DNA of 25,657 nt, from NCBI GenBank assembly GCA_016987375.1, contig PJRA01000036.1, forward strand, positions 22,924 to 48,580. Reading direction: 5' to 3'. The notes under the pieces are model-generated. The model was not told the origin of the DNA, did no database searches, and worked only from the letters and a program-made list of their open reading frames with translations. Source of the DNA: Brachionus koreanus. Its lineage: Eukaryota > Rotifera > Eurotatoria > Ploima > Brachionidae. A program made the position numbers and the translations under genes. Of the stretch, positions 10,464-24,902 are shown piece after piece. Every line of letters begins with the position of its first letter. Positions within the stretch are counted from its first letter, which is position 1.

Positions 10464-10939
10464 CAAGAACAAACAAATATATAATTGACATTTTTTTTGG
10501 TTCAATAGTTCGTAGTAATAAATGAGCATAAATTATTAATATGAATAATTGAACTCGATGTGAACTTTGAAATTATAAATTTGACTATTGGTTTTAGGCC
10601 ACGCCTTGTGTGTACACAATAAAATCATTTAACATTGATAAGTATAGAAAAACATACGAATGCATAAATCCCAATGCAAATAAGGCCAACTAAAACACAG
10701 CCAACCAATGAGAGATTAATTAGAAAAAAAATGTTGCTTATTTATAGTTCGATTTTATATCAATAAATTCTTTTTTCAAAAAATCTAGAACACTATATAT
10801 GTAGAACAATTATTCTGTATTTTTTTTTGTTTGTCCGAGGCCAAACACTATTTCGCATTTAACTTTATTTTCTTAGTCTAGTTAATTAAAAGCAAACAAA
10901 AACCAACTTAAAAAATCGATATTTTCTTCATAATTATCG

Positions 10940-11055
10940 ATTCTAAGCTCCACCCATGTTTGACCGCCCGTCTCTCCACCATTTTTTTATAGTTGTATCT
11001 TGATCACGTTCAAAATAATAAATTAACATTGGTCAATTAGATTTATGTATATATA
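10940..11055 (+). promoter_or_regulatory. Possible promoter zone ahead of the microRNA cluster
   Basis: C-rich CACCC/GC-box-like motifs (ctccaccc, gaccgccc, ctccacc) at about 10950-10980 are followed by ATTGG (reverse CCAAT) near 11030 and TATATATA at 11048-11055, about 110 bases before the first microRNA hairpin. This is a pattern reading only, with no transcription start evidence. Confidence 0.25.
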
Positions 11056-11164
11056 GTATGGCTTAGTTGATAATGGTGGCCAGTTTTTTTCGATTCATTT
11101 TATATCGTCAAAAAAATTCAGAATTTAAAATCAACCGTTTGAGAGTCAATTAATAGGCGCGTAT

Positions 11165-11230
11165 ATTAGTGTCGAGTGATGACCCTGGTTATGAAGTCAA
11201 CTCATCACCGGGTCTACACTTGCCACTAAT
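11165..11230 (+). ncRNA. mir-36: miR-36-family microRNA precursor, hairpin 1
   Basis: The 66-nt segment folds into one arm-to-arm hairpin. ATTAGTG at the base pairs with CACTAAT. AGTG pairs with CACT, GACCC with GGGTC, GGT with ACC and ATGA with TCAT, separated by 1-2 nt mismatches and one bulge, around a 7-nt loop (AGUCAAC). The 3' arm begins UCACCGGGU at 11205, so the predicted 3p mature RNA spans about 11205-11226 and has the seed CACCGGG. That seed defines the miR-35/miR-36 family of nematodes and lophotrochozoans, whose mature strand is likewise the 3p arm. It would load into Argonaute and repress mRNAs bearing CCCGGTG sites. GGCG at 11156 and CGCC at 11233 may extend the basal stem. It is the first of three tandem paralogues on one probable primary transcript. 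Confidence 0.88.
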
Positions 11231-11299
11231 TTCGCCTTCAATAAACATCAAGACAAGCCTAATGAATCAGTCCCAAAGAATGAATGCTTATGCTCAGCT

Positions 11300-11357
11300 G
11301 GTGAGGTGACACGCGGCGAATATAGCTCGCAACATATCACCGGGTAACACACTCACC
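11300..11357 (+). ncRNA. mir-36: miR-36-family microRNA precursor, hairpin 2
   Basis: GGTGAG at 11300 pairs with CTCACC at 11352. The stem continues with GTG/CAC, AC/GT, CGG/CCG-type pairs and ATAT/ATAT, interrupted by small mismatches, around a 10-nt loop (AGCUCGCAAC). The 3' arm carries UCACCGGGU from 11337, so the predicted mature RNA is about 11337-11358 with the same CACCGGG seed as its neighbours. Its downstream half (AACACACUCACC) differs from hairpins 1 and 3, making it the most diverged copy. GCTCA at 11292 and TGAGC at 11373 could close a further outer helix. It begins about 70 nt after the end of hairpin 1 and ends about 50 nt before hairpin 3. Confidence 0.86.
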
Positions 11358-11407
11358 TTTGGAGTATAATTGTGAGCTTCCAAATGTATCTAATCAGTCT
11401 TGATGCT

Positions 11408-11477
11408 CGTTCAGCAAGTGTAGCCTGAGTTATGTGGTTTAGCTTTTTCATCACCGGGTTTTCACACTTGCCAAACG
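11408..11477 (+). ncRNA. mir-36: miR-36-family microRNA precursor, hairpin 3
   Basis: GCAAGTGT at 11414-11421 pairs perfectly with ACACTTGC at 11464-11471. An outer CGTT/AACG helix lies across a 2x2 loop. Above it, CCTG pairs with TGGG-side bases and GT-AUG with CAU-AC, leaving a 14-nt terminal loop. UCACCGGGU starts at 11451, giving a predicted 3p mature RNA of about 11451-11472 with seed CACCGGG. Its 3' tail ACACUUGCCA is identical to that of hairpin 1 but is shifted by two nucleotides relative to the seed, so these two copies look like recent duplicates with an indel in the middle. Confidence 0.87.
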
Positions 11478-11479
11478 AA

Positions 11480-12240
11480 ATTGAGCTATGTCAATTTAAA
11501 TTAATCATTTTTATTAAACTATTTTTTATTAAAAAAATAAAATTTTAAAAGTATTATATTTTCATTCATCTAAACTTCACTGTTAAATTTAAAGTGTAAA
11601 TAAAATTCTCTTTTATTTAAACGCCATTTTGTTTCACTTAATTTATTTTTTAAAAAATAAACCTTTGTTTATCATATTTCATGCCTCAACTTTAAGCGAA
11701 AGCAAACTTCAAATTTAACTAGCCAAATTATTTAATAATATTATTTACTGAATTGAGGAGGTAATGGCGTATTTTAAAATACTTAAAGTAAATCAATATA
11801 TATTAAAAACTAATAAGACTACGCTTATTAACTTAACTTGAAAGGTTTCTATAAATTATACCCTAGCCCATTTATTTTTTTAAAATCAGTATTCAAGTCA
11901 TATATTCAGCCATTTTCAGCTGTATTTCCTAAACATAAAAATGTGAACTATTTTTATTCAGTATTAGTTTGTAGGGGTTTTGAGTACTGTAATTTTAAAA
12001 ATGGAGTCATACATTAAAACCAAAATATTAGACATTTGTAAAATTAAGCTATTGTAAACCCCATTGGCCTTTTATTTTTATGGATGTAGCATTTTTGAAA
12101 AAAGATAAGAAGAATTTAGTAAAAGTACAATGATAGCTACCATGTTAATTGAAGTCCTTAGGGAATAAACAATTTTTCATAGGAATAAATAAATTAAATT
12201 AAAAATGAATGAGTTCATATAGAGAATAAATTTTCGATCA
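11480..12240. other. Intergenic, nothing identified
   Basis: A+T-rich sequence without a recognisable reading frame. GGGGTTT near 11975 and AAACCCC near 12058 are a 7-bp inverted repeat about 80 bases apart, of unknown meaning. Confidence 0.6.
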
Positions 12241-13507: not shown

Positions 13508-14972
13508 TTGGTCAAAATAGGACTGATTCATGTGATAAAAATTTTGAAAAGATATCCAGATATAATCACAATTATTGATTTATCTAAAAAATCGTTAATC
13601 AAAAGACTTTTTCAAGTAATTTTTTACATTTTTTTTAAATGTGAACTTTTGAACTTTCAATTTGTATTTACTTTCTATGTTAAGGAATTATGGTCTAAGA
13701 CTAATTTTGATAATCTCCTTGATTTTGAAAGCAACCAAATCATAAAGATCAATATTTCAAAAAAAAATATCGATAATAATCAACATTATATTCAATTAAT
13801 TACTAAAGACAAAATGGATCTAAACTCCACGTTGTCTTTTTGGATGCTAGTAAAGCGTTTGACAAGCTGTAGAGGGATGGTCTTTTCTTCAAACTGATTA
13901 ATCGTGTGCTTGATGGATTGTGCCGTTTACTATATAAATATTACGATATCTCAAAGGTTATTGTTGAATATGAGAACAAATTAGGTGACATTATGGATTC
14001 AACTGAGGGTGTTAAACAAGGAGGTATTCTTTCTCCTTATTCATTTTGTTGATTTTGTTGACAAGATTTTACATTTTCAATTTTGTGTTCAATTTTTTTA
14101 TTAATGACTTATTGACTGAGTGTACTCAGTTAAATCTTGGTGCTTCAATAAATGAAACATATCTATCCGTAATTGGTTACTGCGACGACCTAGTTATTCA
14201 AGCGCCCTCACATGGTCATTGTCAAATTCTGCTCGACAAATGTTCCAGGTTTGCTCAGAAGTGGAAAATTGATTTCAATCCCACGAAATCGGTGGCGTTA
14301 ACTTTGCAAAAAGGCAAGGCCACAGTGATAAGAAATTTTGTTCTAGACGGTTTCAATATTCCCGAAATTAAGAATGTAGAATACTTAGGCCTTCCTATAG
14401 GCAATAGTGAATTCGTTTGGAACTTTGCCGAAGAGAAATGGAAGAAAGTCGAGACAAGCTTCTACTCTCTTTATGGCCTAGGTTGCAAGCCGAAGGTTGC
14501 ATCTCCAGATCTAGTTGTTTTCCTATACAAACAATTCTGTCAATCAATTTTTCGTTATCCTTTGGACTTGTTATTCATGGGGGAGAATAAGCTTAGTGAA
14601 CTAAATATTAGGCAAAATTTACTAATCAAAAGAATGTTTGATATCAAGAAATTTACCAGATTCAGACCGATGTTACAGGCTCTACGTCTTGAATCGGTAG
14701 AACAATTATATATGAAACATAAAATATTTTTTATGGCAATTAAGGAATAGTAAAATATGCTGGGAATTGTTGACGTTTTTGCATTCGGATTATTCACTCT
14801 TTGAACAGAAAAATACATCTTATTGCAAGCAGCTAAAGTATCTAGAGAAGAAAATACATATGATGTAATGAGTTATAGTCAAAAGACCTCAATCGCCATA
14901 ATTGACCATGTATCCTTAGATAAAAACCATGGCTTGGTTGACTCGGTCAAGTTTGTATGTTCGCAAATATAA
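13508..14972 (+). pseudogene. 5'-truncated, frameshifted LINE (non-LTR) reverse transcriptase
   Basis: A nearly full reverse-transcriptase core is spread over three frame changes. A weakly matching N-terminal part (GLIHVIKILKRYPDI...) runs from 13508. Motif A is FLDASKAFDKL at 13837-13869, followed at 13870-13872 by a TAG stop where the family usually has Trp before RDGLFFKLI. Motif B is GVKQGGILSP at 14008-14037. After a frameshift near 14040 comes FFINDLL. Motif C is YCDD at 14178-14189, with LVIQAPS after it, then FNPTKSV and YLGLPIG of the thumb region. The frame shifts again at about 14746 (NSKICWELLTFL) and at about 14845 (YDVMSYSQKTSIAIIDH), ending with TAA at 14970-14972. The active-site residues are intact, but the copy cannot be translated. 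No endonuclease domain, poly(A) tail or target duplication was found. YCDD instead of YADD is unusual but tolerated. Confidence 0.9.
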
Positions 14973-15930
14973 ATTAATATAAAGTTAAATTTAGAATACT
15001 TTCACTTTTATAAAATTTTGAATGTTCTATTAAGAGTAGAATTTTATACGTAGTAAATATTACAAATGTACAAATTATTCTTTTTTTTTTTACTTAATTT
15101 AATGTAATTTTTCTTCTATTTTTGCCCATGGGGTTTTAAACTAATAAATAATAATAAATAATAATTAAATTAAGAAAATTTTAGACAAAAAAGCTTTTTC
15201 CAGCTAATTTTTTTTTAAATATTTGTTTTTTAGAAAAATATTAATTTATCGAAATGGTAACATTTTTGTTTTGTTTGTATCTTAATTTCACAATACCAAA
15301 AATGTTATTTTATTAGTTGATGCTTGAATATTTAATTTATGAAAGTTCATTTTATCATATTTGGTAATATCTGATTGCAGGTCCATTTTTGAGGTTTTAT
15401 TATTAAAAGTTTTACAAAGAAAAAAAAACAAATAAAATAAAGAATAAATGTATAATTATAAAAATTAAAAAATAAGAGTAATACGTAACCATTCATCCCT
15501 TTGATAACTAGATTACTTGATTATCATCGTGTGTGAACTCTTTTCCATTTTTAATTAAAGTAATCTTTTCGAAGTTTTTAAAATAACCAATTGATAGTTA
15601 AATGTTTTCTTTCATTTGAGCTAAACTTTTCTCTTAAGTTTTTGAATTAATAGCTCCATAAATTTAATGAAAAATGATTGTTTTGAAAAAAAATTGTGCT
15701 TTAAAAATGAATTATATGAATTAACTGTTAATCTCGGTTGAAAATTTAATTTAAACCAATTTTTTTTCTCTTTTTTTTCTTGCAAACAGTTATTATCCTA
15801 GCGACACCGGCAGGTTTGGTGTTGCAGCTCTTTTTATCATTATCTTTGATTGTTTTTTTTTGGAAAGATTCTTAATGAGGATTTTGAATCAAAATCAAAT
15901 AGAAAAGCTTTTTAAATAATACTAATTAAA
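14973..15930. other. Intergenic, A+T-rich, no gene seen
   Basis: Nothing with coding character. One compact hairpin is listed separately at 15801-15825. Confidence 0.6.
15801..15825. other. Compact G+C-rich hairpin
   Basis: GCGACACC pairs with GGTGTTGC (8 pairs, one G-U as RNA) around the loop GGCAGGTTT. It stands out in A+T-rich sequence. It may be a fragment of a mobile-element terminus or a structured RNA; no family was recognised. Confidence 0.35.
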
Positions 15931-17331: not shown

Positions 17332-20300
17332 TTAATTTATTTCCATTGAAACTGTTTCGTTGGAGTCCTTAGCATCGCGCTGAATCGATTCAAACATGCT
17401 GGCCAATTCAGGAGTTGCTCTAATATTTGCCAGAAAGTCGCGCACAAGTGGATTTTTTTCTGCATCAGAGATATTTAGCAGAGAAATAAATGCTCTCAAT
17501 GCCGAACGCTTCAGCTCATCTGTCTTTTCATATTCCTGTTTAACTGCATTACTTTTAACTTTTTGCAAACAAGTATTCACCAGTGGTTCAATCAAACGAT
17601 CAAGACCTTTTATGAAAAAATTCAAAAATCTAATTTATTTGAAATTTTTAACATACGTTGCATTAGAGCATTGGGGCACAAAGTCGAGAGACGAACTAGC
17701 ATCAAATAAGTCAGCATCTTTATATCATAGTGGTCTTTAAGCCCGTCTTCAACGTGGTTTAAGAACTCAAAAATGTCAATTCTATCCAAGCATGAGTCCA
17801 ACAAAGTGTACATGGTTTCAAAAGCGGCTTTTCTCAAGTCCAAACCATCGTCAACCGTGTGCTTAAACGGACCCATTTCGACCTCTCTAATAAGCTCGCT
17901 GCGAACTTTGGTCTCATTGTAAAGGTACTGCATCAAAGTAGAAGGTTGTACATCAGCTCCGTCAACACTCATTCCTTCTTCACTCACTCTGCTCATTGTT
18001 ATCAAGTCTCTGACCAATGATGGTTTATTATGCGCTGCTGAGTTGAATGTTACCAAAGCGACTCGTCTAACATTTATGTCCGTATCTCTTAGTGTGTTCA
18101 AAAATTTGCCCAAATAATTTTTTAGATAAAAATCAATCGGTTGAGGCTTTTTTTTTTAAAATAAAAAAAAAATTTAGAAATTTTTTTGAAAATTTTTTTC
18201 TCACTTGATCAGTTATGGTAAATTTAATAGCAGTAACCACAGTTGCTCTTGCTAGTGCTGACTCGAATTCTAAATATTTTTCCAAATTTTTTAACAAATT
18301 TTCCGGATCTAATAAAGTCAATTTGCCCAGGCATTCAGCCACAACATTTCTCGTTCCTTCTTCACTGCACTCACAGTGTTTTATCAAAATGTTCCATACA
18401 TCATTCATGAAAGGCTTGAGAGCTTCAAAGCCTTTTTCCTGGCTACTCTCATAGCTAATTATCTCTTTTAACGAATTGAATAGCAAATACTGACGCTTAG
18501 AGTTTGAGTTTATTTCATTCAGAATGAATGGTATGTATTTTTGCAAATTGCCAAGACTAAGATAGCCCAAAGCGTATGAAGCAGCCGATTTTACTTCTTC
18601 TAATGGAGATGAAAAAGAGTCTATAATGACCAGTTCTAGATCTGCATGACAGCTCAACTCTCTAAACACAAAATTTTCAAATAAAAAAAAGAAAAATTTT
18701 TTTTTGTTTTTTTTTTACATGTATTTGCCTGTTTCTCCCAAACAAAGCAAAGCCAGAAGTCGCACCGAGTCACGAGATTTGGAATCTTTTATGTCTTGAA
18801 TGAATTTTTTAATGACCAATTGTCCTTCTTCTTGATTAGTGACAGTAAGTGCAGCAATGCACTTGGCTATAGAATAAAAAGCCTGTTTATGAACTGCCAA
18901 ATTGCTGCTCTCATAAACGCCATGGCCATTAGCTGGCTGTATACTCATACTTTGTTCTTTTATAGGCTTAATTAACATCTTTTGTTAGCAAAAAAAAATT
19001 AGAGATTTAAAAATATTTCTTTTTTCGGCATAAAATTACCATAACCAAATCTTGGTATTGAAGACCTGGTTGCTTGTGCTTTACAAGAGAAATAAAAAAC
19101 TCAATTGTTTGCTCAAGTGCAAGACCTTGTAGCAATGGAGATTGTATCAACAAGAGTATTTGATTTAAAATATTTTTTGAAATTAAATTAGGGCCATGAT
19201 TTTGGCAAATTAGAGTCGAAATTTTCAAGGCAACCTAAAAAATAAAATGTTCTTTTCTTTTTTAGATTAATTTTTTAAGCAAAAAATTTACATATGAAAT
19301 GTGAAGATCGTTTTCGGACAATAAAGGTGGTAATTCAACAATAACTATATTTTTAAGTTCTTCAATAGATATTAGTTGACTGTAATTTTTGTAAATTGAC
19401 AACAAAGTATTTATTGAGGAAAGCTTTAGAGTGCGATAGTTTTTCCTCAAAAAAGATGCCAGCAATTGCAATGCTTCGGGAAAAATGGCATTCAACTCGA
19501 CTTTGGTTGGAGAACTGAATAAAGAAAAAAAACTAAAATAAAATTGATCATCTCACTTTACAATTTAAATTACTCTGCGATTGTGTTTATTGCTTTTACG
19601 GCTGTAAGACGAGTTATTTCGTTCTTTAGACGCTCAACTAAAATTGGCCAGCATAAATTTAAATCTTTACCGACTAAGTGTCCTAAATTGCAAATTATCT
19701 GAGCCCTTTAATAAAATTTTTTTAATAATTAGAAATTTTATTTAATAAATTTTCATGACTTAATGCTGTTTAATTAAAGAATAAAATTGTTTTGTCAAAT
19801 AATTGATATTTCATTTTTTATCTAATACATGATTATTTTATCTTAATTTTTTATCTTTTCATTTATTTAATATCAACAAATTTCAAATTCAAATAAAGTA
19901 TTAAATTTTTTTTTAATCAAGAACGAGGAATTAGTATATAATAATCCTGGCCCAAATTTGAAAAGTATTCTCTTATAGTAAAACAGAATTTGATTACATC
20001 GAGTGGTTGATGTGAAATAGAATTCAATGAATAATAATAAAATTTAATTTGTGAAATCTTTAAGATATTTACTTTCAAGAGGAAAACTTTTGTTTTAAAA
20101 ATTTAAGTTTGGGTTTTAGTGAAATTTGGTACAACTAAAAAAATAGAAAATAAATTAATACTTAAAATGATTTTAACTTTTTTTCTCAAGGTTATTACTG
20201 ATTCTATAATAAAACAAGTCTGCTAATGATGTATAAATTACTGCAAAATGCACTACAGTCAAATTTTTCAAAATTTAATTAATGCTAAATTTGCAGAGCT

Positions 20301-23300
20301 TTACCAGAATGGTCTAAAAAATGCACTTTTGCACCATGTTGCATTTAGAGAACTTACTTTTGATCTCTAGAAAAAAAATTATTAGAATTTTTGACATTTT
20401 TTTTGTTCTATGGTATTAAATTTCACAAAAGTTTTCTATTTTATCAAAACTGATTTTATTAATAAACTTAACTGTATATTATTCTAAAAACGTTAAAATA
20501 TAATTTATAATTTAAAATTATGTAAAAAAGACATAATTTTTTAAAAATATTTATTAACTGTTATCATCCCTATATTTTTACCCATCAATTTTGTTATAAA
20601 ATAATATTTTGACCGAAAGAAAACACCGTTTAATTGACGATGTTATTATTTAAAAAAATAGTAGTCTTAAACAATTAAAATTGAACAAAATCAATTCCCA
20701 ACATTTTTTCAGATGAGTCTTTATTTTTAAGCGTCACCAATTTTATATACTGTTTATTATCAAAAAGAAGAAGTTGGTATCCTAAACTTTGAGGAAAAAT
20801 AAATTGTTATTTTGAATTTAAAAAGGTTAACTTTTGTAAAAAAGTCCAAACAGCTTTTGAATTGGGCTTATAAATGGAGATCATCAATAGAGATACTTTT
20901 TTTATCCTTATTTAATTGTTTTGTAAAAAAGGATCTGCTTGAATAATAAAAATAAGCATCTAATTAAATATTTTTTATCCCACTTTCTTATTATTTTAAA
21001 ATGAATTCAACGATATTGATATCATAAATTGTTAAATTTCCAATTTTCAATTTCCAACAATCAGTCAATCTCACGTCTTGGCGTCCATTTTGAACCAATT
21101 TGAAAAGAAAAAGATAGATATGTTTATTTAATTGTTTTAGAGAAAAAATATTAACCCTCTCTAAACTCATAAACAAATTTTTAAAAAGATTTTTTTTCCA
21201 ATACAAGCATTGTAATAAAACAGTATATTAAAGTAATATTTGTGATTGAAAACTTGATTAAAAATTAAAAATTAAAAAAATTAATCTATTTTAAATTAAT
21301 TTTCAAAAATTTTAAATAAGGAATTCATCAAGAATTCAATTCTTCTTTCTCACAATATTAAAAGAAAATATATAAATACAATTTACATGGTTTTACTTGA
21401 AATGATTTTTATTGCTTTGAAAATATTATTTAATATTTGATCGTGTTAATATTGTTATGGTAAACTTTCGAAGTTATTCTCCAAAAATACAATTTAATTA
21501 TAGTATAATTTGAGTGTGGTAGAAAGCATAAAAAAGAGAAAGAAACGTAAATTTAAAAAAAATTAAATGAAAAATTAATCGAAATTTTTTTATAAAAAAT
21601 ATTTTTTATCAATAAAGAATATTTTTTAATGAAAAAGCTACTCCAATGATACAGCAAGTATATAACTTATTTTAGTGACTGTCTAAATTAAATTCTTTTG
21701 ACTAAATCTAAGAATTAACAAAAACAAAATGTTAAAAGTTTTAAATTGCTTACATGCAGTTGATAGCTCTTTCTTTTACTTCCTGGTCAATATCGGTTTG
21801 TTTCAAGCGAGTGAGAGTAGCAGAATAGAACTCCTCTACGTATTGTCTGCAATTGTTGCTTTCTTTTAAAGAGCTGCGCATTATTTTTGACAAGTGTTGG
21901 CCAACTAAAAGAGCATCTGATGCAATTTTGTAAAAATTATCTTGGATGCATTTCAAAACAAGCTAAAAAAAGAGTAACGAAAAATTATTTAATTTTGTAA
22001 AAATATACTTGAATGATAGATTCCAAATATGGATGAAATAGTTTTTCTTCATGGGTTAAAATTAGATTGTATAGAAAATTAAGTGTATCAATTTTCATAT
22101 TCGAAGTAGATAATTTATCACTATAAAATCAAAATTAATGCTTAGAACAGAAATAAATAGACTTTTGAAGTTTACTTCAGTGAAAATATAATTCCTTGAA
22201 TGACAACATTAAAATGATTAGCCAAAGCGCCTGGATACACGTTGACCAGCTGAGTCAATAAAGTGAAGCATCCCTGACGAGTCTTAGCATTTTTGTTTTT
22301 AAATAATTTTTGTATGGCTTTTACAATCATGTTTATTTGCGATTTAAGCAACTGAATTGATTTCTCTTCGGTTTCCAACTGCTTTATGTCCAAAAACTGT
22401 TTAGATTTAAGTATCAATGGCTTCGTTTGCTGCAAAATTGTAATGTAAACATTAAATATGTCAGATTTAACAGTTTCTTCCCTTTCTATTTATATTAAAC
22501 AATTAAATTTTTTTTAAGAAAACATCAGTCTTATTTATTTATCACATGATCAAAAAATTTTCATTAAGAGAATTGCAACAAAAGTTCAAACCTGTTTTTA
22601 AGTCTGATTTTAGTCAGGTATAATAATATTTTTTCTATAAATAATTTATTAAAAAAATTTTTTATTATTTTTTTTTTGATTTTTAAATTAAGACATAGTT
22701 TATTTAATTAAGATTTGATATTCTTAAAATAATTTTTAGATTTAAATTTTAAATATTTACATCTCTGATCTTTTTTTTTCATTTTGTGTTAGATTTTTTT
22801 AATTTAAAAAAAAAAAAAACAAAATTTTGCTAACACATTTTCCATGTTTCATTGCATGGAAAGTCTAAATCAAATTTCAACTGTCAGCTTATTTTTTTTA
22901 ATTATTTTTTTTATCAGTTAATTGATATTATCGAATATTTAAAACTTTTTTAATCAGAAATTGTACTGCTAGATGTAGAAGTTATTATTATTTGAAATTT
23001 AATTCATCTTTTATAAAAAGTTAATTTCTAAATGAAAAATATGATTTTTTTAGGATAATAAAATCAAAACCAATTATTAACTTTTTTTTGCACTTGTCAA
23101 AATATAGAATAATCTTTGACAATTACCTTCAAAGCTGTTAAGTTAAAACTCTCTCTAATTATTTGGTGAAAAAAATAAAAATTAAAAATTTTCTGAAATA
23201 TTGCACAAAAAATCTAAAAACATGAAAATGTAAAAATTTAAAATTATTTTCCACACACAACTAATACAAATTTAGATTTAAATTTCGAAGGATAATGCTA

Positions 23301-24902
23301 TGAATGATAAGAATAACAAAAATAAATAAATTCTCTATGATTTTTGGTTTTATATGAAAAATTTTATTCTAATGTTAACAAATAAGACTGATCCTTAAAA
23401 GATAATAAATAAAATTTACCTTTAAATCGGCTTATCAGTACAGGAGAGACTTCACTATAAAACATGTAGAGTAATTCTCGTCTAGTGCCAATTATGGCGT
23501 CCAAACATTTTGCAGCAGCTCTTCGAATCCTCCAACTTACATCATCATCGTCTGAATATTCCTCTAGATCCCTGCAACAAAAAAAAAAATTTTCTCAAAT
23601 TCAGCAATTAAAACATTAACTTTAAATAAAGAATACTCTTCTTGATCGAAGTCTCCTTCATCAACATCCATTTCCTCTTCATCATCGTAATTATAATTTG
23701 GATCATAAGAAATATATTTAAGACACAAATCTAAAATCTAAAAAATATAAATATTTTTAACATTTATTGATATTTTTGCGTTTTCGTTTTACTTGTTTGA
23801 TAAACGGGGTTATTTCTTTAGGACATCTTCTAACAAATGATTCAAAGGCCTGCAATGAATATTCAACAATTTCTTCATCCTTGCTGTTACAATAAAAAAC
23901 AATCAGCGGAATAATACAATCTAAATTTTGGCCTATTCTCTGACCAGCAGTGCGACTTATGGCACTCAAACATTGAATGTATGTTTTTGTCAAGGAATTG
24001 GACTGCTTTTTTTTCAACTCATTTAAAAGAAGAGTTAAAAGTTCATCAAATAGGACCGAATTACAACTAGCCACTAGGTATCCAATAGCCAAAATAACTC
24101 GTTTTCTAACTGCCAGTCTAGGGCTTATTAATTGAACTTTGAGACAAGATAAAATTTGCGGATGAAAGCTGACTAGACTATTTCCAAAATGGTTTAGTAT
24201 GTCTGCCATTATATCAAGAATTTCTAGTTGAACTGAAGCGTCATCCTTTAAATAAAAAAATTTTAAAAATTAAAAAAAAACAACTATTTTTGTTATAATT
24301 AAAAAAAATTACTTTTTGAATGGAATTTAGTAGACGGCCGGTTATTTTTTTGACTACATTAGAACTTATTTGTGAAGATATGTGCGGCAATTGATTAATG
24401 ACAGTTTTAAGGCCAATAGAAGAAATATCCTTTAGCTGTTCTTTATCGGAAAGCATGTTAGAGCACAATGTCTCAACAATTGTTTCTACTTGAAATTCTT
24501 TGGTTTTGGCAACCAAAGGACCTAAGCTTTAAGTTTTTTATAGATTTATATAGAAATATTAATATTTTTTTTTCATACCATTTAACAGCCAAATTTTGCA
24601 CTTCACCATTTTTGTCTTCAAGAAGTTTTAATAATGTTTTGACAATCTAAACAAATTTTAAAGTCATTTATCAATTTGTTATGTTTTCATTTCATACTTT
24701 TCTTTCACTGTCGTCATCAAGTTTTATGGAATCGCTTTGAAGTTCTGCCATTAAATCATTGGTAGCCATAAAACGAAAGTCTTTGTCGACCGATGTCATC
24801 TTGTTAGATGTTTATTATTAAGTAATTTTATAAGTATATCAATGAACAGGTTACTTTTTCCAATAAAGTTGGTAAATTTGATATTTGATATTGGTTAGAC
24901 AT
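17332..24902 (-). CDS. CAND1: CAND1, cullin-associated NEDD8-dissociated protein 1 (17 exons)
   Basis: CAND1 is a HEAT-repeat solenoid that wraps un-neddylated cullin-RBX1 and exchanges substrate receptors of SCF-type ubiquitin ligases. Exons on the minus strand: 24902-24855, 24799-24698, 24646-24579, 24526-24313, 24245-23793, 23737-23637, 23571-23420, 22485-22176, 22120-22009, 21962-21754, 19705-19574, 19514-19292, 19234-19040, 18978-18719, 18661-18205, 18146-17657, 17606-17332. All introns are GT-AG and the phases agree throughout, giving 1266 codons plus stop (vertebrate CAND1 is about 1230). Family landmarks include [13 protein letters not shown] near the N terminus, [49 protein letters not shown] followed by an acidic loop (about residues 315-345), [60 protein letters not shown], and the C-terminal TIP120 domain starting LYNETKV (about 1087) with [22 protein letters not shown]. 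Oddities are a 20-residue insert at 1066-1085 and a longer loop in exon 14. The start has a close match to the family N terminus ([10 protein letters not shown]). Confidence 0.97.
17336..17341 (-). terminator. Poly(A) signal overlapping the CAND1 C-terminal codons
   Basis: AATAAA lies within the last codons (GAA ATA AAT TAA), so cleavage 10-30 nt downstream would leave a 3' untranslated region of only about 10-30 nt. No other AATAAA occurs on this strand until 17167. Confidence 0.3.
17928..17987 (-). other. CAND1: 60-nt in-frame candidate optional intron (exitron) in CAND1 exon 16
   Basis: On the minus strand the segment starts GTGAGTGAAG, a strong donor, and ends CTTCTACTTTGATGCAG, a pyrimidine-containing acceptor. 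Its length is a multiple of three and it has no stop. It encodes residues 1066-1085, which are absent from other CAND1 proteins I know. Removal joins RDLITMSR to YLYNETKV, one residue short of the vertebrate length at this point. Its size falls within the 46-67 nt of the neighbouring introns. Against an intron: its base composition (27 G or C of 60) is like coding sequence and unlike the A+T-rich introns, and [10 protein letters not shown] resembles the family helix DTVLPHLYNE. Both readings are open. Confidence 0.5.
19706..21753 (-). other. CAND1: CAND1 intron 10, 2048 nt
   Basis: The largest intron, thirty-fold longer than most in the gene. Its ends are GTAAGC and TTAAAG. No coding region is recognised. 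The ORF-like stretch at 20991-21206 has no similarity I can name. A diverged inverted repeat at about 20113-20432 suggests an old mobile-element insertion. Confidence 0.85.
20113..20432. repeat. Diverged inverted repeat in CAND1 intron 10
   Basis: The left arm near 20113-20135 (TTTAGTGAAATTTGGTAC) matches the reverse complement of the right arm near 20410-20432 (TTTTGTGAAATTTAATAC) at all but three positions, and an A-rich tail follows inside each arm. Both arms are preceded by AAAACTTTTGT. The spacer of about 280 nt has more mixed composition and no coding sequence. It looks like a small decayed inverted-repeat element. Confidence 0.4.
22486..23419 (-). other. CAND1: CAND1 intron 7, 934 nt
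   Basis: Donor GTAAAT and acceptor AAATAG delimit a long intron splitting a Glu codon (phase 1). It is A+T-rich with no coding content. One 24-nt hairpin (TTTCCATG, 8-nt loop, CATGGAAA) lies at 22839-22862. Confidence 0.85.

Follow-up and report, generated by a model that had tools for sequence, protein, structure and literature searches.

Does this stretch of rotifer DNA, 25,657 nt in all and called the window here, carry microRNA genes of the miR-36 family? A sequence-only reading had proposed a miR-36-family cluster, and the proposal is supported by the seed, the arm on which the seed lies, the spacing of the hairpins, their folds, the drift of the spacers against the stable hairpins, and the Drosha and Dicer genes of the host. 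With a probability of about 0.9, we read the locus as three MIR-36 microRNA genes (mir-35/36 seed) arranged in tandem, in a monogonont rotifer that resembles Brachionus.

A shared seed in the window and in the genome

When searching both strands of the window, we found exact copies of the 9-mer TCACCGGGT at 11205-11213, 11337-11345, and 11451-11459, all on the + strand and all within 255 nt, and an exact search showed no fourth site on either strand. Shuffled windows held 0.01 sites on average, and none of 100 shuffles had three. The starts at 11205, 11337, and 11451 that had been claimed for UCACCGGGU on the + strand are exact matches, with 0.01 expected in the window. The seed CACCGGG, nucleotides 2 to 8 of the predicted mature strand, is the same in all three hairpins and in all three of a second copy of the cluster on another contig, C18. 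The mature strand would begin at the UCACCGGGU start that carries this seed.

By itself the 9-mer TCACCGGGT is not enriched in the genome, since the 83.26-Mb assembly (92 contigs) has 59 sites versus 77 for the reversed control pattern. Clustered sites account for 6 of the 59 and are found in two places only, the window, which lies on contig C68, and C18:855224-855474. The genome scan for further family members covered the TCACCGGGT and CCACCGGGT sites, in which CACCGGG has C or T before it and T after it.

Structure of the predicted precursors

At each of the three sites, a microRNA-sized hairpin carries the seed at the 5' end of its 3' arm, with 15 to 16 of 20 bases paired. The predicted features are listed below, with a length of 22 nt assumed for all three 3p products.

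11165..11230, + strand: hairpin 1 (pri/pre-miRNA, MIR-36-like), flanking pairs reaching 11155-11237; fold -30.5 kcal/mol, z -5.77; Rfam mir-36 score 30.3 bits
11205..11226, + strand: hairpin 1 predicted mature 3p, UCACCGGGUCUACACUUGCCAC; seed exact, 16/20 bases paired, same in C18
11171..11193, + strand: hairpin 1 predicted 5p/star, placed from the fold with 2-nt 3' overhangs
11294..11363, + strand: hairpin 2 (given earlier as 11300-11357, here with the lower stem added); fold -26.0 kcal/mol, z -3.01
11337..11358, + strand: hairpin 2 predicted mature 3p, UCACCGGGUAACACACUCACCU; seed exact, 15/20 bases paired, same in C18
11301..11321, + strand: hairpin 2 predicted 5p/star, placed from the fold
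11407..11478, + strand: hairpin 3; fold -25.9 kcal/mol, z -3.71; core 11412-11473 without differences from C18
11451..11472, + strand: hairpin 3 predicted mature 3p, UCACCGGGUUUUCACACUUGCC; seed exact, 16/20 bases paired, same in C18
11415..11434, + strand: hairpin 3 predicted 5p/star, placed from the fold

With the assumed 22-nt 3p product, the folds give predicted precursors of 56 to 58 nt, stars of 20 to 23 nt, and loops of 11 to 16 nt. By a scripted count, the lower stem has 9 to 12 pairs in the region of the predicted Drosha cut and beneath it. The same precursor scan found a CNNC motif at +20 in hairpin 1 and at +19 in hairpin 2 and none in hairpin 3.

Folding the three segments against shuffled sequence had been suggested as a check, and all three folded better (z of -5.8, -3.0, and -3.7). 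The minimum free energies and z scores listed above come from 76- to 77-nt folds and 200 shuffles each, of which 0, 1, and 0 folded equally well for hairpins 1, 2, and 3; hairpin 2 is the weakest of the three against its own shuffles (1/200). The minus strands likewise fold well (z of -4.70, -3.73, and -3.61). When both strands were tiled (5116 tiles of 80 nt), the three loci ranked 1, 2, and 4 among non-overlapping single hairpins, and for ranks 1 and 2, which are hairpins 1 and 2, the better 80-nt tile was the minus strand. Folding does not give the strand, because the minus strands fold nearly as well; we call the + strand because the shared seed sits at the 5' end of the + strand 3' arm. 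In the same ranking, third place goes to a single hairpin at 14411-14490 (+), with -26.4 kcal/mol, inside a reverse-transcriptase frame.

Across the genome, the six cluster hairpins of both copies fold at -25.7 to -30.7 kcal/mol. All other 53 TCACCGGGT sites were also folded, with a mean of -11.4 and a best value of -20.1 kcal/mol, and none attains the folding energy of the cluster. Two control sites of the same sequence, L042 and L064, pair 19 bases of the 3p arm upstream, compared with 16 to 18 in the cluster, in weak stems of -12.2 kcal/mol. The 27 genomic CCACCGGGT sites reached -22.7 kcal/mol at best, and the five best pair only 0 to 7 bases of the 3p arm upstream.

The sequence around the seeds had been described as not repeated. 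By eye, this holds only in part: the tails that follow the seed have ACACTTGCC, ACACTCACC, and ACACTTGCC in common with shifted spacing, and the stems around these in hairpins 1 and 3 are similar. The common tails suggest that the three hairpins arose by tandem duplication of one ancestor. A further claim, that the arms show compensating differences, was borne out in part. By eye, two-sided changes are confined to hairpin 2, in its lower stem; opposite the seed, whose own side is invariant, G.U pairs, bulges, and mismatches take up the differences. When hairpin 1 and its C18 counterpart were used to build a model (R1), it recovered hairpin 3 over its full length at 14.8 bits (E of 0.19), slightly less than the 15.2 bits of an unrelated match, and missed hairpin 2. 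With hairpin 3 recovered marginally and hairpin 2 not at all, we claim no family-wide covariation. MAFFT alignments of the hairpins put the 5' arms out of register, and the structures given here are not based on them.

A second copy of the cluster

The C18 copy is collinear with the window copy and 93% identical across the cluster, with spacings of 132 and 110 nt versus 132 and 114 nt in the window. Collinearity extends around the cluster and includes a gene for CAND1, with piecewise identities of 79 to 95%. On a larger scale, C68 (104 kb) is collinear with C18 at about 803 to 881 kb, as judged from five C68 pieces and eight C18 pieces; pieces near both ends of C68 match C18 in order, the match at the low end covering just 278 bases. 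C68 probably represents the other haplotype or a recent duplicate. Other contigs also repeat one another at single sites (L042 and L064, L033 and L061, and the RNase III pairs on C36 and C21), and the repeated contig sequence looks like uncollapsed haplotypes of high divergence.

The differences between the two copies are unevenly placed. In hairpin 1, the copies disagree at a single position of 66, 11174, where a G.U pair becomes A-U and pairing is retained; in hairpin 2 they disagree at 2 of 68, the loop positions 11328 and 11331. For hairpin 3, the core (11412-11473) shows 0 differences in 62 positions, the nearest being 11479, or 1 in 77 if 11404-11480 is taken. By comparison, there are 5 differences in the 66 positions of one spacer, 5 in 35 (plus 3 gaps) in the other, and 7 in 44 in the downstream flank (11481-11524). 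In this one pair of copies, with gap columns dropped and borders chosen by the analyst from the folds, the hairpin arms are conserved above their flanks: 3/196 differences in the hairpins versus 23/284 in all near flanks (Fisher P of 9e-4) and versus 10/109 in the stretches between hairpins (P of 0.0025). One stretch upstream changes little too:

10901..11164, + strand: upstream low-change stretch; 3/139 and 5/124 aligned positions differ from C18

With 8 of 263 positions changed between C68 and C18, this stretch may be a promoter or the 5' part of the primary transcript. Its fair conservation means that the conservation signal may partly reflect a wider transcript or promoter.

The presence of two copies, 79 to 95% identical by piece, raises the question of whether the window holds the remains of a cluster, now decaying or silent, with C68 resembling a second haplotype of C18. 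We give this very little weight; the two copies agree in every seed and every predicted mature, and the single stem change keeps its pairing.

Another explanation is that these are not microRNAs at all but inverted repeats that belong to a mobile element, or hairpins arising by chance. Its best points are the minus strands, which fold about equally well, and a fragment of a reverse transcriptase 2.5 kb from the cluster:

14016-14750, + strand: reverse-transcriptase fragment, Brachionus jockey-like LINE; 37 protein matches

However, the block occurs twice in the genome as collinear copies and not as a dispersed repeat, 0 of the 53 other 9-mer sites fold as strongly, and the spacers drift while the hairpins are conserved, all of which makes an origin of this kind highly improbable. 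The named matches of the fragment are to Brachionus plicatilis or B. calyciflorus, with identities reaching 80% across part of the query. At 13792-15177 the window exceeds its C18 counterpart by about 1 kb, and the LINE element may therefore exist in one copy only.

Host genome and neighboring genes

If the hairpins are processed as microRNAs, the host should have the enzymes. A frame on C36 matches solved Drosha with 630 bits, C21 carries a similar pair of RNase III domains that is probably Drosha as well, and a frame on C6 matches solved Dicer with 446 bits, so that both processing enzymes, Drosha (C36, probably C21) and Dicer (C6), are encoded in this genome. The host also fits a protostome: the named reverse-transcriptase matches are all from Brachionus, indirect evidence since the fragment belongs to a mobile element, and CAND1 is animal-like.

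17335-24811, - strand: CAND1 (cullin-associated NEDD8-dissociated protein 1); about 16 exon pieces, read by eye

CAND1 has its 3' end toward the cluster, at a distance of about 5.9 kb. The best protein matches of CAND1 are six proteins listed under no organism (67 to 73%), followed by named animals at 48 to 59% (sturgeon, beetle, lancelet, and others); Brachionus is not named in the 120 listed of 1629 matches. Ten longer frames around the cluster gave no Pfam match above the curated cutoff, and the cluster may lie in an intron. The mir-35-like cluster prompted a test for nematode origin, which was rejected: an SL1 leader pattern was absent from the genome within 2 mismatches. A cuticle-collagen search was empty, as was its control, and carries no weight. 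A bdelloid leader pattern was not found either, a weak argument against a bdelloid host, and neither 18S patterns nor COX1 gave a match. A miR-1 sequence was absent within 1 mismatch; we take this negative result as divergence or as an incorrect query.

Probable assignment to the miR-36 family

The sequence-only reading had named CACCGGG as the miR-35/36 seed, and this sequence is indeed present at the start of cel-miR-35-3p (PMC12219410). In Echinococcus and Schistosoma, the miR-36 mature is the 3p strand and starts with UCACCGGGU or CCACCGGGU (PMC8016320, PMC2820009). The orthologues compared in PMC3653858 have CACCGGG in common, with two Brugia exceptions. That 2013 paper describes the family as seen in helminths only, yet its own figure list has the annelid Capitella, and PMC8016320 places mir-36 among the protostome families.

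Rfam at gathering thresholds gave no match in the window. A relaxed search of 801 bases gave mir-36 (RF00685) as the best match, aligned end to end on hairpin 1 with 30.3 bits and an E value of 1.9e-4; this is the only hairpin matched and its score is below the gathering cutoff of 48 bits. Hairpins 2 and 3 were unmatched by RF00685 at E values up to 10. Five other matches were listed, all with E values of at least 0.14 and all on or across hairpin 3: mir-7940, mir-355, two snoRNA families, and one sRNA family. These five, with mir-7940 as the best on hairpin 3 (E of 0.14), look like chance. A genome-wide search with RF00685 had no match at an E value of 0.001, and the control was likewise without a match.

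In ungapped comparison, the predicted matures are identical to published miR-36/35 matures at 10 to 15 of 22 positions. With identity this low, what ties the matures to the family is their first 9 nt, the arm, and the way hairpin 1 aligns to the Rfam model. The same numbers would fit real microRNAs that acquired the miR-36 seed by convergence, forming a rotifer-specific local family without descent from protostome MIR-36: 8 to 9 of the 10 to 15 identical positions are the shared start, the remainder is near chance, and Rfam picks up one of three hairpins, under its cutoff. We consider convergence unlikely, as the 9 nt, the arm, and the register all equal those of Echinococcus miR-36 and C. elegans miR-35, and the Rfam match extends over the whole precursor with an E value of 1.9e-4. 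Descent from MIR-36 is our preferred reading, and the locus is then a further member of a known protostome family, in a group whose microRNAs have been catalogued before. The Brachionus plicatilis set in MirGeneDB has 54 microRNAs in 35 conserved families (PMC12256650). The string "mir-36" is absent from the main text of that paper. In a search limited to the text of papers, the first 18 to 20 nt of the three predicted matures, with U or T letters, were not found.

Proposed pathway and significance

Our proposal starts from direct observations: the sequence and how it folds, its conservation across the two copies, and the Drosha and Dicer genes. One primary RNA would be made from the + strand in the space past the CAND1 3' end, and the three hairpins probably share this transcript. 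Drosha would cleave the hairpins out of the primary RNA, and Dicer would free duplexes of about 22 nt. The 3' arms starting with UCACCGGGU would enter Argonaute, and the loaded 3p strands would repress mRNAs with CCCGGUG sites. For this cluster, everything from transcription and its strand to the exact cleavage sites, the choice of arm, and the targets is predicted.

In C. elegans, the mir-35 family is expressed in the germline and embryo, is required for viability and fecundity, and is essential for embryos (PMC6404603, PMC4169167). By analogy, we would guess at a maternal or embryonic role for the rotifer cluster. A more speculative idea, which we hold to be rather doubtful, is that rotifer MIR-36 multiplied locally, independent of the nematode mir-35-41 expansion, giving eggs a large maternal dose of a single seed. 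If true, high-dose redundant MIR-36 clusters would be a recurrent protostome solution, approachable here in an animal that has amictic as well as sexual eggs. Should eggs express the cluster, the embryonic role of the family could be addressed outside nematodes. With this locus, an old protostome family probably gains rotifer members whose arms have diverged, and the Rfam mir-36 model, used at its curated cutoff, misses genes of this kind.

Comparison with known systems

The Rfam family RF00685 aligns end to end with hairpin 1 at 30.3 versus 48 bits and leaves hairpins 2 and 3 unmatched. Flatworm miR-36 (emu-miR-36a/b-3p and sja-mir-36a) is like the rotifer cluster in its 3p arm and CACCGGGU core (PMC8016320, PMC2820009), whereas only 10 to 14 of 22 positions are identical. 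The C. elegans mir-35-41 cluster shares CACCGGG at nucleotides 2 to 8 and the UCACCGGGU start (cel-miR-35-3p, PMC12219410), and it too has several clustered copies (PMC4169167); it differs in that the rotifer locus has three copies with other 3' halves and is known from sequence alone. The Brachionus plicatilis set in MirGeneDB (PMC12256650) comes from what is apparently a related rotifer and may contain orthologues of the cluster, which is possibly already annotated in this congener.
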